A stretch of DNA of 64,000 nucleotides from Deltaproteobacteria bacterium (GTDB taxonomy: Bacteria > Myxococcota_A > Polyangia > HGW-17). The position numbers were made by a program, and so were the translations under genes. Below, in pieces: positions 3,378 to 50,265 of the stretch. The DNA is taken from the NCBI GenBank assembly GCA_016937155.1, contig JAFGWM010000032.1, forward strand, positions 233,422 to 297,421. The letters are read 5' to 3'. Numbering within the stretch: position 1 is the stretch's first letter; each line of letters starts with the position of its first letter. The notes below the pieces were generated by a model that worked only from the letters and a program-made list of their open reading frames with translations, did not search any database and had not been told where the DNA came from.

Positions 3378-5807
3378 TTATTTCATTGGAGCAGTTGGAG
3401 GAGCAACTACTTTCCTTTTCACCGGGGGAATAATTCCGCGGTTGGGAGGTAATTTACCGTTCAGGCCAGGTCTTCTGGGGATTCTGCGGATTGCAGGATT
3501 TGCTCCAGGAGCTCCGGTATCTTTTGGCTGAATCCATACTGCTTCAGGGGTAGCTGTTTTCATGATTTCTTCATAATATTTATCAGCGGTGATTTTCTTT
3601 TCAGTCATCATTTTTTTGGCTGCTTCCAGTTCACCGTCGATTAACTTGCGATATACCTGAACACTACGACCGCGTGCAAATTTACCGTTTATGAATACAC
3701 TGGGTGTTCCCATAACGCCGATTTTTCTAGCTTCAGCCATTGTTTTCTTGATGAGTTCCTTGTGGGTTCCCTTATCCATAGCAGTTTTGAATTTGGCCAT
3801 GTCAGCGCCAATAGCGGTTGCTGCAGCATCAAGAGTTTCTCTTTTGAGGTTTTTAGGGTTAGCATATGCTTTTTCTATGAAAGCGAGGAGACCCTTGGGT
3901 CCTTTCTGTACGAATATTTCCTGCATTGCTTCATGAGCGCCCATTGCATCTTTGTGGAATGGAAGGGGATAATGGAGAAATACAATTTTTACACCCTTTT
4001 TGTAACCTGTGAAAGTAGCAGGTTTACCATCTTTAGGTTTTTCTCCATTGAGGAGTTCTTGAAGCATCGGGAAAATACGACGACAGAAGGGACACTGGAT
4101 ATCAAAACCAACAGCGATAACGACTTCAGCTTTGGGGTCACCAATAAATGGAAGTCCTTCAATTGGCCAAATTTTGTAGGTTTTTGTATGATCAAGTCTT
4201 GGACGTGGTTTTCTTTTTGGACGTTCTGGAGCTGCCTGCATAATGTATTTTGCAGTAGGCTGTGCACTTGACAGTACATATTTGTAATAATCTGCTCTGG
4301 TCGATTTCTTTTCTTCAATAGCTTTCTTGGCTTTTGCTATTTCACGATCAACTATTGTTTTAAACTGTTCATAGGGACGAGCGCCACTCAGGAAATATCC
4401 GTTTATGAAGAATGCCGGGGTACCACGAGCACCAAATTTTGCTGCCATAGCCTGCTGGACTTTAATGGCTGCAAGATGGGTCTGTCCAGTCATAGCGGCT
4501 TTGAATTTTGTTACATCAACGCTAGCCACTTCCTGAGCCCATTTTTCAAGGTTTGCAGGATTAATATCTTTTCTGTTTGCGAAAAGATGCTTGTGGAAAC
4601 TCCAGTATGCATCAAGACCCTTTTGGTTAAGAACCTCAACAGCTGCCATGGAAGCAGGAAGAGCCTGCTTGTGGAAGGGCAGTGGATTATGAAGATAAAC
4701 TAATTTTACGTCATCCTTATAGTTATCAACAACCTTCATAACTGTTTCGTCAGCTCTGCCACAGAAAGGACACTGATAATCACTGAACTCAATAATTGTT
4801 ACCAGAGGTTCTTTTGCACCTTTCCATGCATCTTTTTCAGTATATTCCACTTTGTAAGGAACATTGGGATCAAGTACTTTACGTGGTGGACGTTTACGGG
4901 CATTTTTCTTATTGTCAGCTTTACGGTTGGGTTTTCCACTGAGTCCGGCCAGATTACGTACTCCACCACGAGTCAGCATGGCATAAGCTTTTGTTCTGGG
5001 ATATTTTTTCTGCTTTATGATTTTAAGTTCTTCTGCAATCAGTGAACTGAGATCTTTAGCTGCCTTGTTGAGATCTCTCTGCATATTGAACTTACGGCCA
5101 TTAACGAGAATAGTGGGAGTTCCACGAACGCCAATAAATTTACCGGCAGCCATCTGCTTGTCAACAGCAGCTTTGTGTTTGTTGCTATCTAAAGCAGCTT
5201 TGAGATTCTGAACATTCATTCCAACTTCACCGGCCCACTTAAGAACATTTTCTTTACTGATTGTTCTTGGAGCAGCAAACATTTTGTCATGAAGTTCCAT
5301 GAATTTTCCCTGCTGATGTGCTTCCATTCCAGCCATAGCTGCGAGCTCAGCAGATTTATGAATTCTTGTAAGGGGGAAGTTCATCATAACAAAACGAGCA
5401 TCATTTTTGTGATCTTTGATGGCGTTATGAATAACTTCGGCTGCTTTTTTACACCAAGGGCACTGGAAATCATCAAAAACTACGATGGAAACCGGCGCAT
5501 CTTTGGGGCCATAAAAAGGAGCATCCGCAGGAATTCTGAGATTAACTCTGAGGATTTCACCACTTTTTGCAGCTTTTTTATCGTTACCTTTTTGTGCTAC
5601 GCGTCCTTTTGCATTATCAGCACATTTGCTTTCGCCTCTTTTTCCCAGTGGAAGGAAGAATCCTCCTAAGATGAGACCAAGGGCAAAAATAAAAATCATT
5701 ATGGGTACAGCTGCAGGAACGGGAATTCCGGCACCCACTGTTTCCTCGGATTTAGCTTTAACATCCTCGGAAAATTTATCAGTTTTCTTTTCCTTATCAG
5801 AACTCAT
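3378..5807 (-). CDS. Membrane-anchored protein with three fused DsbA-like thioredoxin domains
   Basis: An 809-residue protein. A charged N-terminus is followed by one membrane segment (about 31-55), then three consecutive DsbA/DsbG-type domains in the periplasm. Redox motifs: CPWC at 116-119, CPFC at 346-349, CPFC at 572-575. Each domain keeps the cis-Pro loop G-T-P-x-x-x-x-N-G (Pro at 231, 464, 702). Lys/Pro/Arg-rich linkers separate the domains (about 285-312 and 528-540), and a Pro-rich tail ends the protein. Known DsbA enzymes oxidise cysteine pairs or, with a reductant, isomerise them. GAAAGGAG lies before the ATG. All three active sites look intact, so this is a triplication and not decay. 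Likely clients are the cysteine-rich lipoproteins of this window (inference). Confidence 0.92.
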   Translation of the reverse strand: MSSDKEKKTDKFSEDVKAKSEETVGAGIPVPAAVPIMIFIFALGLILGGFFLPLGKRGESKCADNAKGRVAQKGNDKKAAKSGEILRVNLRIPADAPFYGPKDAPVSIVVFDDFQCPWCKKAAEVIHNAIKDHKNDARFVMMNFPLTRIHKSAELAAMAGMEAHQQGKFMELHDKMFAAPRTISKENVLKWAGEVGMNVQNLKAALDSNKHKAAVDKQMAAGKFIGVRGTPTILVNGRKFNMQRDLNKAAKDLSSLIAEELKIIKQKKYPRTKAYAMLTRGGVRNLAGLSGKPNRKADNKKNARKRPPRKVLDPNVPYKVEYTEKDAWKGAKEPLVTIIEFSDYQCPFCGRADETVMKVVDNYKDDVKLVYLHNPLPFHKQALPASMAAVEVLNQKGLDAYWSFHKHLFANRKDINPANLEKWAQEVASVDVTKFKAAMTGQTHLAAIKVQQAMAAKFGARGTPAFFINGYFLSGARPYEQFKTIVDREIAKAKKAIEEKKSTRADYYKYVLSSAQPTAKYIMQAAPERPKRKPRPRLDHTKTYKIWPIEGLPFIGDPKAEVVIAVGFDIQCPFCRRIFPMLQELLNGEKPKDGKPATFTGYKKGVKIVFLHYPLPFHKDAMGAHEAMQEIFVQKGPKGLLAFIEKAYANPKNLKRETLDAAATAIGADMAKFKTAMDKGTHKELIKKTMAEARKIGVMGTPSVFINGKFARGRSVQVYRKLIDGELEAAKKMMTEKKITADKYYEEIMKTATPEAVWIQPKDTGAPGANPAIRRIPRRPGLNGKLPPNRGIIPPVKRKVVAPPTAPMK

Positions 5808-5991
5808 ATGAAATTACTCCTTTCTAATTAATCAATAATCTCAGTAAGTTTTTTTTAGTTTTCAAAATAAAGAAATCCTCACAGTTTCAAGGTGACATAT
5901 ACTAACCATTTTAATGTTCTAGGCAAGTATAAAGTTGCTTTAACTCCTATGGATAAAAAACTATTCCCCGAAAAAATAAAGAAAAAATTAC

Positions 5992-6020
5992 TTGCAACTA
6001 AAATATTCGGAGTCTACTAT
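5992..6020 (+). promoter_or_regulatory. sigma-70-type promoter of the 6S-like RNA
   Basis: TTGCAA (5992-5997), a 17-bp spacer and TACTAT (6015-6020) place the transcription start at about 6027. That is exactly where the terminal stem of the structured RNA begins. Confidence 0.65.
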
Positions 6021-6026
6021 TGTAAT

Positions 6027-6219
6027 GGCCCGTCTGCCGGGTTCGACAGAAGAACAATATTTTCTTCCTACGTTTCAGCCCCGGGATTTGCCGCTGTCTC
6101 AGGTTCGCGCAAGCCCCTCGTTAAGGTTGGAGGGGAAGCAGTTCACAGACATGTGAAGCCCACCTAACAAGGACGCGGGTTGGAAAAGTTCTTCATCGGC
6201 CCAGCGGACGGTTTTTTTT
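6027..6219 (+). ncRNA. ssrS: Probable 6S RNA
   Basis: A GC-rich island in AT-rich DNA. The 5' end CCGTCTGCCGGG (from 6030) pairs with the 3' end CCCAGCGGACGG (ending 6211) with 11 of 12 pairs possible, directly followed by T8. The RNA is about 190 nt, the usual 6S length. The 5' segment CTGCCGGGTTCGAC resembles the CTGCCGTGTTCG start of proteobacterial 6S RNAs, and the segment AAGCCCACCTAACAAGG on the 3' side also looks familiar from that family. 6S RNA mimics an open promoter and sequesters sigma-70 RNA polymerase. It lies upstream of clpB. No SRP or tmRNA motifs are present. The call rests on recognition of stem, length and motifs; a covariance-model search was not possible here. Confidence 0.7.
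6197..6219 (+). terminator. Terminator formed by the RNA's own closing stem
   Basis: The 3' strand of the terminal stem (6200-6211) is followed at once by eight T residues (6212-6219), so the closing helix of the RNA can also serve as an intrinsic terminator. Confidence 0.55.
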
Positions 6220-44623: not shown

Positions 44624-44635
44624 TTGTGCTACAAT
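44624..44635 (+). promoter_or_regulatory. Extended -10 promoter element of the SRCR lipoprotein gene
   Basis: TTGTGCTACAAT holds an extended -10 (TGCTACAAT) with no good -35. The identical 12-mer is the -10 region of the promoter at 47354-47382. Confidence 0.5.
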
Positions 44636-44681
44636 GCATATCTGCAAAATGCGGAAATTATTAAAATCAGGAGAAACTCTT

Positions 44682-47300
44682 ATGAAACTGAAAAATCTTT
44701 TACTGGGATTCCTTCTTATTGGGGTATTTGTTGCCTGTGATGACGACAGTACACCTAACACCAGCTGTGGAGACGGTATAGTCACTTTCCCGGAGGAATG
44801 TGATCCTCCTTCACAACTTGCATGTAATGACTCATGTATGCGTGATGAGAGTAAATGTGGAGACGGGAGTTGTGAAGCTCCGGAGACCAATGCCAACTGT
44901 CCGGCTGATTGTCACGAGGTTGTGGAAAATTGCGGAAATAATGTGATTGATGACGGAGAAGAGTGTGATGGGGACAATCTTAATAATGAGACCTGTGAAA
45001 CTCAGGACATGGTTAGTGGTACCCTTAAATGCGATCCTGTCACATGTAAACTCGATACATCTGAGTGTGAACAGGGAATTTATTGTGGAAACAATGTTAC
45101 AGATCAGGAATCTGAAGACTGTGACGGAACAGATCTCAGTGGCCAGACATGTCTCTCTCTGGGATACAGCGGTGGTATTCTCAGATGTCTTAGTGATTGT
45201 ACATGGGATACTGAACACTGTACCAGTCCTGATTGTGGTAACCTCACAATTGAAGAAGGAGAAGAATGCGACTCTGATGATCTCAACAGTGAGACCTGTG
45301 AAACTCAGGGATTCTCCGGTGGTGATCTGAAATGCAGTGCAACATGTCAACTGGACACTTCCGACTGCTCCAGTTGCCAAAATGGTGTGAAAGAGGGTGA
45401 TGAAGCTTGTGATGGAACAGATTTTGGTGTTCAGACATGTACATCACTTGGTTTCAGTGGTGGAACACTTGGATGTTCCTCAAGTTGTACACTGATAACT
45501 GATAACTGCAGTACTTGCGGTGATGGTGTTCTTTCAGACGGTGAACAGTGTGAATTATCAGATCTTGGTGGTGCAACCTGTGAATCAAGAGGTTTCAGTG
45601 GTGGAACACTCAGTTGTACCGATACATGCCAGTTCAATACAGCAGGATGTTTTAACGAGACATGTGGCGATGGAGAGGTAAACGGTACAGAAGACTGTGA
45701 TCAGGATAATCTGAATAATCAGAGTTGTACTACACTTGGTTTTGCCGGTGGAACACTCAGTTGTTCATCTTGTACTTTCAATACCAGCGGATGCAGCAAC
45801 TGTGGCGATGGAAATCTGGATGTTGGAGAAGCCTGTGATGGCTCAAATTTAAACAGTCAGACTTGTGAGACTCAGGGTTTTGACAGTGGAACACTTGGTT
45901 GTCTGGCTAACTGTACTTTCAATACAAGTCAATGTGTTACTGATTCATGCGGAGATGGAACAGTTTCAGGTATTGAAGCTTGTGACGGTTCAAATATGAA
46001 TGGAAATACATGTGCATCAAATGGTTTTGATGGTGGGACCATCAGTTGTAATGAAAACTGTACTCTCAATACAGACCTGTGTTATTCATGTGGTGACGGG
46101 GAAGTAAACGGCACTGAAGAATGTGACAGCTGGGAGCTTAACGATGAAACTTGCGAATCCCTTGGTTATGGAGGTGGTTATCTTTCATGCACTGATTCCT
46201 GCAGTTTTGATATTACCTACTGCAGCATTTGTGGCGATGGAGAAATAGGGGAAGGAGAAGAGTGTGACGATGGGAATACGGATGACTTTGATGGTTGTAC
46301 ATCTGCATGCAGAGTCAGCGAAAATGCGTATCGTCCAATAAGACTCACCGGTGGCGAAGGTTCCAATGAAGGCCGTCTTGAAATGTATAAGGACGGTTCA
46401 TGGCACGCAATATGTGATGATAACTGGTGGGGAACAGAGCAAAATACTGCTGATGTAATATGCAGACAGCTTGGTTACACAGGAACTGGTCATACATTTA
46501 TCTCTGAATACAGTGCTATTTCTGAAGATGATTTCATTATGGATGATATAAATTGTGATGGTACTGAAGAATATCTCCATCAATGTCCCCATGAAGGTAA
46601 GGATGACTGTTTTACCTATGAAGCACTGGGTGTTGCATGTGTTCCCGGTGAGGGAGATGTCAGACTCGTTGAAGGTCCAAACGGAATGGAAGGAAAACTT
46701 CAGGTTTATCACAGTGGCAGCTGGGGTGATGTATGTGATGATATTATTCAGGATTCAGATCCGGGCTGGTATGGCCCAAGAGCAGTTTGCAGCCAGTTGG
46801 GTCATAAATTTGATTCCTATAATGGTTCTTATACAAATGATGGTAACTATCTTCTTGATAATGTAGACTGTAATGGAACTGAAAAGAGAATTGTAGATTG
46901 TGCTCACAATGACTGGGGTGATGAAAACTGTTTCTCCTGGGAAGTCACCGGTGTTAAGTGTACTGTTTGGGATGAAGGTGATATCATGCTCAAAAATGGT
47001 GACCAGTTGAATAATGGTATTATTAAAATACTTAACCAGAATGTTTGGGGTACAATCTGTAATGATGGTGTTTATGGTGATAATGCCACATATTTCTCAA
47101 GTGTAGCTTGCTACGAACTTGGATTCACCACCACCGGAAGTGTATATACTGAAAGTGACTCTGAAGAGACAGATCCCATTTGGCTTGATGAGGTTACATG
47201 TACCGGATCTGAAGCCGGACTGGAACAGTGTACTGATGATGGATGGGGTATTCATGATTGTAACCATTGGGAAGATCTTGGTCTTATCTGTACTCCATGA
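44682..47300 (+). CDS. Lipoprotein with CGDG cysteine-rich repeats and three SRCR domains
   Basis: 872 residues from the ATG at 44682 (AGGAG upstream). Lipobox VFVAC, DDDS behind it. About nine full and three partial repeats of the type CGDG...E-E/A-CD...L-N-x-x-T-C...G-G-x-L-x-C...C...C (about 45 residues, 6 Cys, related to the DUF4215/myxococcus cysteine-rich repeat group) fill residues 30-560. Three scavenger-receptor cysteine-rich (SRCR) domains follow (about 562-665, 670-775, 778-872). Each has the G-R/K-L-x-V/M-Y-x-x-x-W-x-x-V/I-C-D-D opening, a C-x-Q/E-L-G centre and an L-x-x-C-x-x-x-x-W/D end. SRCR domains bind ligands in animals. Probably surface-exposed. Confidence 0.9.
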   Translation: MKLKNLLLGFLLIGVFVACDDDSTPNTSCGDGIVTFPEECDPPSQLACNDSCMRDESKCGDGSCEAPETNANCPADCHEVVENCGNNVIDDGEECDGDNLNNETCETQDMVSGTLKCDPVTCKLDTSECEQGIYCGNNVTDQESEDCDGTDLSGQTCLSLGYSGGILRCLSDCTWDTEHCTSPDCGNLTIEEGEECDSDDLNSETCETQGFSGGDLKCSATCQLDTSDCSSCQNGVKEGDEACDGTDFGVQTCTSLGFSGGTLGCSSSCTLITDNCSTCGDGVLSDGEQCELSDLGGATCESRGFSGGTLSCTDTCQFNTAGCFNETCGDGEVNGTEDCDQDNLNNQSCTTLGFAGGTLSCSSCTFNTSGCSNCGDGNLDVGEACDGSNLNSQTCETQGFDSGTLGCLANCTFNTSQCVTDSCGDGTVSGIEACDGSNMNGNTCASNGFDGGTISCNENCTLNTDLCYSCGDGEVNGTEECDSWELNDETCESLGYGGGYLSCTDSCSFDITYCSICGDGEIGEGEECDDGNTDDFDGCTSACRVSENAYRPIRLTGGEGSNEGRLEMYKDGSWHAICDDNWWGTEQNTADVICRQLGYTGTGHTFISEYSAISEDDFIMDDINCDGTEEYLHQCPHEGKDDCFTYEALGVACVPGEGDVRLVEGPNGMEGKLQVYHSGSWGDVCDDIIQDSDPGWYGPRAVCSQLGHKFDSYNGSYTNDGNYLLDNVDCNGTEKRIVDCAHNDWGDENCFSWEVTGVKCTVWDEGDIMLKNGDQLNNGIIKILNQNVWGTICNDGVYGDNATYFSSVACYELGFTTTGSVYTESDSEETDPIWLDEVTCTGSEAGLEQCTDDGWGIHDCNHWEDLGLICTP

Positions 47301-48339: not shown

Positions 48340-50265
48340 ATGAAATATTTATCTCTGTTTCTTGTTTCTGCACTTTTGTTATCCTGCTCAGATGATAAAA
48401 TAAAACCCTACTGCGGTGATTTTGAAATAAATCAGGAATCTGAAGAATGTGACATGAGTAATTTTAATGGATTTTCATGTTCTGATTATGGTTTTTACGG
48501 GGGGCGATTGAATTGTACTGATTCATGCAAAATTGATATTACTATGTGTGAATCATATGGATACTGTGGTGATGGGATTATTCAGGAAGGCGCTTTTGAG
48601 GAATGTGACAGTAATGTTTTAGGTGGGAAAACATGTGAAAACCAAGGATATTACTCAGGAAATCTAACATGTGGCAGTAATTGCAGACTTGTTTATGATG
48701 AGTGCGAGGAATCAGGATATTGTGGTGATGGTGTAGTTCAATCTCAGGAGGACTGCGATGGCGAACAATTGAATGGAGAAAGTTGTGAATCTCTGGGATA
48801 TCACGGAGGTGAACTCTTATGTCGTATGGATTGCAACTATGAACTGACAGGTTGTGTTACTGCTGGTAAATGTGGAGACGGGATAATTCAGGCTGGCGCC
48901 GGTGAGAAATGCGATACGTTTAATGTTGGGGATCGAATCTGTGAGGATGAGGGGTTTTGGGGTGGTACTTTAACCTGTGATGAGTGTTCTCTGGATGACA
49001 GTCTCTGTTTTGATCCTGTAAAAGTTAGTTCAGGTTTTTTAACCACATGCGCAGTGGATTCAACTGGAGGAGCGTGGTGCTGGGGGGCTGGGATGTGTGG
49101 TCAACTGGGTGATGGCGTTACTGGAACTGAAGATTGCAATGATATTTTCGGAAGTGGTATGGAAATCACTGATGAAGACATGGTTGATAAGCCGGTAAAA
49201 GTAATTTCAGACAGATCCTTTACTGATATTTCAGTTTCCTATTTTCATACATGCGCAGTGGACTCAACTGGAGATGCATGGTGCTGGGGACATAACTTTT
49301 TCCTGGGTAACTCAACTCTGGATTCCACCGGACTATCAAATGTTCCTGTGAAAGTGGAATCTGATCCATCTATCGATTTTGTCAAGATTACCACAGGAAT
49401 AGGTCATACCTGCGCATTAACAGAAAATGGAGACATTTACTGCTGGGGAGCTAATAATTACTATCAAATTCAGGAAGGATACCCGGTTTTTTCTATGACA
49501 CCTGTTAGGGTTTCAACGGTTCAGGAGCAGATATTTACCGATGTTTCAAGTGGTCCCTATCATAACTGTGCCATAAATACGAGTCATAAACTTTTCTGCT
49601 AGGGTGATACCGGGATGGGTCAGACGGGGATAGATCCTGCAACAATTCCTGTAAATAACTGTAATTACTCTGAAACACTTGATGCATTTACAGGAAAATG
49701 TGTGGGATCTCCAACTCTTTTTCCTTTAAATAATTATTCCTTTGGTAAGATAAGCTGTGGTGGTGGAGATTTTGATGGAACTGGTGGAAGAGTGGGTATG
49801 GGATATACCTGCGCAGTGGGTGCAGATAGTATCATGGAAGTTATTGCCGGTGGAAATATCTACTGCTGGGGAGCCAACACAATGGGACAGTTAGGAGTTG
49901 ACCCTGGTTTAGTGCCATGGAGTTATGAACCCCAGATTATTGATTTTCCGTATGGAATAGATTTTATGGATAAAATATCTACTGGGTTTGGTCATGCCTG
50001 TGCTGATGGTTTGGGTTTCAGTTTATGCTGGGGAGCGAATATGGTTGGCCAATTGGGTAACAACACTTATGATACTTCTATTTCACCTGTTATTGTCGAT
50101 GTCCCTGCATATCAATCTTTTAATAATATTTCAGCAGGTTATATGCATTCATGTGCAATTGGTGCAGGGTCTTTATGGTGCTGGGGTCTTGGGCAGCAGG
50201 GGCAACTTGGTGTTGGTCTCAGAACTATTTCAAAGATACCATACAGGACTTATTCTCCTGAATGA
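48340..50265 (+). pseudogene. CGDG/RCC1-repeat lipoprotein gene interrupted by one in-frame TAG (49600-49602)
   Basis: The frame encodes a lipoprotein (lipobox LLSC) with four CGDG-type six-cysteine repeats and then seven RCC1-like repeats, each ending in C-W-G. At 49600-49602 the expected Trp of the fourth C-W-G is TAG (LFC-stop-GDTGMGQTG), a single-base change from TGG. The same frame runs on to 50265 with three more intact repeats. Without readthrough, a 420-residue product ends there; otherwise the full chain is about 641 residues. The tail has no start of its own with a ribosome site. Recent nonsense mutation, sequencing error or amber readthrough are all possible. GGGAG precedes the ATG at 48340. 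Confidence 0.85.

Follow-up and report, generated by a model that had tools for sequence, protein, structure and literature searches.

The literature treats scavenger receptor cysteine-rich (SRCR) domains almost exclusively as modules of animal immunity and adhesion. In DMBT1, a group B member like CD163, these domains bind ligands via two exposed cations, one held by D1019, D1020 and E1086 and the other by D1020, D1058, D1059 and N1081. With either substitution, D1019A or D1020A, DMBT1 no longer binds hydroxyapatite, heparin or a streptococcal protein (PMC7043408). On the bacterial side, the closest described proteins are the Cys-rich acidic repeat proteins of Myxococcota (TIGR02232, PF13948). 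A full-text literature search turned up no publication that links SRCR to Myxococcota or deals with bacterial SRCR, and the consulted portions of two sponge SRCR papers (PMC4772301, PMC10855680) concern host genes and do not describe bacterial SRCR domains. The window, i.e., the whole stretch of 64,000 nucleotides that was analysed, encodes a protein in which both elements are joined: a stalked bacterial lipoprotein form of the known SRCR domain, which belongs to a conserved family and is neither unique nor one-off. Its features are as follows (all on the + strand).

44682..47300, +, SRCR lipoprotein gene; best start ATG 44682, frame open from 44634
44670..44673, +, Shine-Dalgarno-like GGAG, 8 nt upstream of ATG 44682 (sequence reading)
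44682..44738, +, putative signal peptide and lipobox MKLKNLLLGFLLIGVFVA-C (pattern by eye); Cys codon 44736-44738
44766..46319, +, stalk; about 12 repeats of the Cys-rich CGDG/CGNG type, most of them 46-51 aa long (sequence reading, TIGR02232, model)
46182..46310, +, last stalk repeat, best DUF4215 (PF13948) match (Pfam); residues 517-559 of the 888-aa ORF
46350..46640, +, SRCR domain 1; 75.4 bits; 6 Cys; motif CDD; cation-site residues D D D D D E
46671..46964, +, SRCR domain 2; 62.6 bits; 6 Cys; motif CDD; cation-site residues D D D N N E
46995..47294, +, SRCR domain 3; 70.1 bits; 6 Cys; motif CND; cation-site residues N D D E D E

The open frame 44634-47300 (+) comprises 888 aa, and ATG 44682, the start used in the first-pass annotation, is the better start because of the GGAG upstream of it and the same start position in orthologs. 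The first-pass annotation had recognised three SRCR domains with intact Cys and C-D-D/N-D signatures and had named a profile search as the test that could overturn this. Each domain scored well above the curated PF00530 cut-off (75.4, 62.6 and 70.1 vs 26.1 bits; bits per domain from a six-frame genome search) and carried the expected motif (CDD, CDD and CND). Pfam reported SRCR three times in the protein (whole-protein E=1.4e-48), and these three copies are the only ones in the 4.1-Mb source genome (six-frame profile search). Exactly six Cys with group A spacing were found in every window domain, and six Cys also in 41 of the 42 family domains sampled, whereas the group B domains of CD163 have 8. 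Matches in the PDB reached E=6.7e-90, the best being vertebrate CD163 domains, and the AlphaFold model of the three-SRCR module had a pLDDT of 88.8. In this model, single domains adopt the SRCR fold and superpose on SCARA5, M2BP, SCARA1 and DMBT1 at 1.5-1.9 Å (Foldseek), the values for SCARA5, M2BP and DMBT1 lying at 1.5-1.7 Å. Therefore, a chance likeness to SRCR is excluded by the PDB matches together with a confident model that matches animal SRCR structures. Compared with the animal group A domains of SCARA5, M2BP, SCARA1 and MARCO, the window domains have the same fold (TM by target 0.87-0.89, rmsd 1.5-1.9 Å), 32-35% identity and the same Cys spacing. The protein differs from the animal SRCR proteins in being a bacterial lipoprotein with a CGDG stalk and without a transmembrane or collagenous part.

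The stack of CGDG repeats described earlier ahead of the SRCR domains is real: 66 Cys lie within the 532 residues from the lipobox to SRCR1, and the TIGR02232 profile (myxo_disulf_rpt) scored 35.2 bits against a cut-off of 20.8, which places the stalk among the myxococcal repeat proteins of the same type. This profile recognises one stretch of the stalk, the remaining repeats being diverged copies, and Pfam assigned DUF4215 with E=1.2e-8. The stalk was modelled as beads with moderate confidence, and the global confidence was low (pTM 0.23). The source genome holds 53 DUF4215 stretches over many contigs, so the stalk is routine and the SRCR heads are special; among its CGDG-type repeat proteins, the window protein alone bears such heads.

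Translated from ATG 44682, the protein begins with MKLKNLLLGFLLIGVFVAC, a pattern of the lipoprotein-type signal peptide ending in the lipobox VFVA-C. A lipobox-type Cys was found in 15/15 family members, with A, G or S at position -1 in all of them, which bears out the lipoprotein-type N-terminus claimed earlier. The SRCR protein is probably lipidated and membrane-anchored, to judge from its sequence pattern, and would most likely sit on the outer membrane facing outward. The residue at +2 from the lipobox Cys is Asp in the window protein (CDDD) and Ala in all orthologs but one. An Asp at this position retains lipoproteins in the inner membrane of enteric bacteria, a rule not established for Myxococcota, and therefore calls for caution on the localisation, even on which membrane is concerned.

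The six DMBT1 residues D1019, D1020, D1058, D1059, N1081 and E1086 were mapped to 18 positions across the three window domains. Their equivalents (DDDDDE, DDDNNE and NDDEDE) are all D, E or N, i.e., the same residue classes as in DMBT1, which at the residue level is consistent with a dual cation site in each domain. Over 15 orthologs, 16/18 of these positions were always D/E/N, compared with 12 of the remaining 65 acidic or Asn positions (p=6e-8, Fisher test), and all six residues were D/E/N/Q in 40 of the 42 family domains sampled. All six were also present in 91/104 other bacterial SRCR domains, and in just 2/7 CD163 domains; the conservation seen within the family is thus in part general SRCR conservation. 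Since the metal and ligand sites are conserved, the suggestion of the first-pass annotation that the domains act as ligand binders gains support as the probable role of the protein. A conserved bacterial family in which all three domains and their cation-site residues are intact can serve as a natural control when the metal-bridge mechanism, proposed to be universal, is examined.

The reading favoured here, with a probability of about 0.6, is that the window protein is anchored in the envelope and binds anionic glycans, polymers or surfaces in a cation-dependent way. A lipoprotein anchor would fix it in the cell envelope, most likely in the outer membrane and outward-facing, and a disulfide-bonded stalk of CGDG repeats would hold the three group A-type SRCR domains off the membrane. 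In each domain, a paired divalent-cation site would bridge to anionic groups, as in animal SRCR proteins. Binding by the three heads would be multivalent and dependent on Ca2+/Mg2+, with polyanionic glycans, extracellular polymers, DNA, mineral or the surface of a partner as ligands, and the physiological role may be adhesion, prey or particle capture, or the sensing of neighbours.

The strongest competitor, although clearly less probable, is a structural or cell-cell use, in which the SRCR domains would bind a partner protein, the cell's own extracellular matrix or an S-layer, and no outside ligands; LOXL2-like animal extracellular-matrix enzymes offer a model for such SRCR domains. SRCR is also a protein-binding fold, complexes of CD163, CD6 and CD5L were among the fold matches, and the many DUF4215 stretches make envelope display routine in this genome. 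However, the cation-bridge residues are retained in all three domains while the remainder of SRCR3 is just 45% identical within the genus, and no co-conserved partner gene was seen past the genus level.

PF00530 was sought in three circles, namely 96 relatives, 318 genomes of the class and a 379-genome sample of the phylum, and in 14 control genomes. SRCR was present in 8 of the 96 relatives' genomes, while any SRCR was carried by 23/318 genomes of the class and, patchily, by 20/379 in the phylum sample; it was absent from all 14 controls. The domains are therefore not widespread or ordinary in this phylum, whereas the first-pass annotation had named a widespread and ordinary occurrence as a result that would count against it. 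The same stalk and three-SRCR architecture was found in 15/318 class genomes, all Polyangia-type Myxococcota, including Sandaracinaceae, which NCBI places within Polyangia. It comprises a lipobox, CGDG repeats, a last DUF4215 repeat, three SRCR domains and, as the last residues, CTP, CNP or CIP. The three-SRCR gene stands in two tandem copies in one genome (L053), and one family member (L028) is incomplete at a contig end. The three-SRCR modules of family members show 45-58% identity to that of the window. In the window genome and in G001 (Old_saline.mb.39) of the same genus, the gene order is shared: a lipoprotein, an exonuclease VII large subunit-like gene, a lipoprotein and the SRCR gene, followed downstream by a small ORF and an RCC1 lipoprotein. 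Between the window and its same-genus relative, the neighbours are 44-61% identical, and SRCR1, SRCR2 and SRCR3 are 69%, 56% and 45% identical, respectively. Comparison of the family loci revealed no partner gene conserved with the SRCR gene beyond the genus level. Carriage by phages or plasmids was rejected: the SRCR protein had no match in phage or plasmid sequences, and the sole IMG/VR match is a different protein, probably from a giant virus. The IMG/VR contig L150, giant-virus-like by its other ORFs, encodes at 3560-6061 a membrane protein of 833 aa that combines a single SRCR domain with a long polyproline tract, an arrangement that looks algal.

A tree built from 153 SRCR domains placed the SRCR1, SRCR2 and SRCR3 domains of the family in one clade each (support 100/95, 100/99 and 97/97), the SRCR1 and SRCR2 clades being sisters (96/90). 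A smaller tree reproduced the positional clades, with SRCR3 standing apart; a single clade uniting the 30 family domains was not recovered, yet the AU test did not reject it (p=0.40), so that the three domains may or may not stem from duplication inside this family. As each domain position forms its own clade, the architecture must be old and has been passed on as a whole. In the gene tree of the module, the window's family stays together with its genera within it, and the tree roughly follows taxonomy. The three-domain protein is thus older than the families of the class that carry it, and was mostly inherited, with losses or some within-class transfers. Regarding the question whether the domains were transferred or ancient, an old and mostly vertical history within the class is supported by the trees.

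A recent transfer from an animal to this lineage is very improbable. SRCR is classically an animal domain, and the PDB search ranked vertebrate CD163 domains highest, but several families within the class have the whole architecture in common, the domains group by position, the gene tree roughly follows taxonomy, and SRCR also occurs in MAGs of many other bacterial phyla. The seven CD163 domains formed one clade outside the three positional clades, in a tree where vertebrate CD163 alone represents eukaryotes and 100 columns resolve few deep forks, and they differ from the family in Cys number (8 vs 6). Transfer as a recent event is largely refuted by the family-wide conservation and the positional clades. 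Eukaryotic host DNA assembled or binned into a bacterial MAG, for which only the fact that every carrier is a MAG could speak, has a negligible probability and is refuted by the gene order repeated in an independent MAG of the genus and by the in-frame fusion of SRCR to a bacterial stalk repeat and lipobox, the gene lying among bacterial genes on a contig of 299,738 bases, e.g., the exonuclease VII large subunit-like gene upstream, and the ORFs being intron-free in 15 genomes.

The conserved bacterial three-SRCR family renders the origin of SRCR testable. It is conceivable, though we consider it unlikely, that SRCR is an old bacterial surface-binding domain that diversified in Myxococcota and was exchanged with early animals via close contact, so that the metal-bridged mechanism shared with animal scavenger receptors would have arisen before or outside animal immunity.

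The named ortholog records are MAGs titled Old_saline, MM_PC_MetaG, HGW-Deltaproteobacteria, MED-G138, UWPOB, SSF7, Prado and Dive96, several of which we take to come from groundwater, marine (sea water), wastewater and sand-filter projects. By their titles these sources are non-host, in keeping with a free-living bacterium, and imply no animal host, so that the predatory-like or host-associated lineage envisaged earlier found no support, and SRCR carriage alone is no indicator of animal association. Other SRCR architectures occur in MAGs named as Gamma- and Alphaproteobacteria, Acidobacteria, Chloroflexi, Nitrospinota, Gemmatimonadetes, Latescibacteria and Binatia. These other bacterial SRCR proteins, e.g., those with a single SRCR in 1,200-1,800 aa, lack the three-domain C-terminus on a CGDG stalk. 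Gammaproteobacterial MAGs (L098, L099, L103, L105, L108, L110, L115, L124 and others) carry SRCR in proteins of 1,200-1,800 aa, and two large ones that were scanned add fn3, cadherin-like and leucine-rich-repeat domains. The isolate names COS, IRC, RHO and APA presumably match sponge projects; many of the gammaproteobacterial carriers are probably from marine sponges, and their large SRCR proteins may be involved in host contact. In a Candidatus Binatia MAG (L084:4096-7329), a single frame of 1,078 aa encodes seven SRCR domains in tandem, a number reminiscent of CD163. Family f49, from another class of the phylum (L038-L049, L066, L068, L072), often has multiple SRCR domains, up to 10 per genome, which lie in long Cys-rich repeat proteins. 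In f49, in the Binatia protein and in the fn3/cadherin/LRR giants of L098 and L099, the six cation-site residues are mostly kept, as in the window family.

Downstream of the SRCR gene, the RCC1-repeat lipoprotein gene (48340-50265) has a similar CGDG stalk, and an amber codon in frame at 49600-49602 divides it in two. Its counterpart in a relative of the genus (L022:12831-14837) is a single open frame of 669 aa, and the amber stop is either a recent nonsense change or an assembly error.
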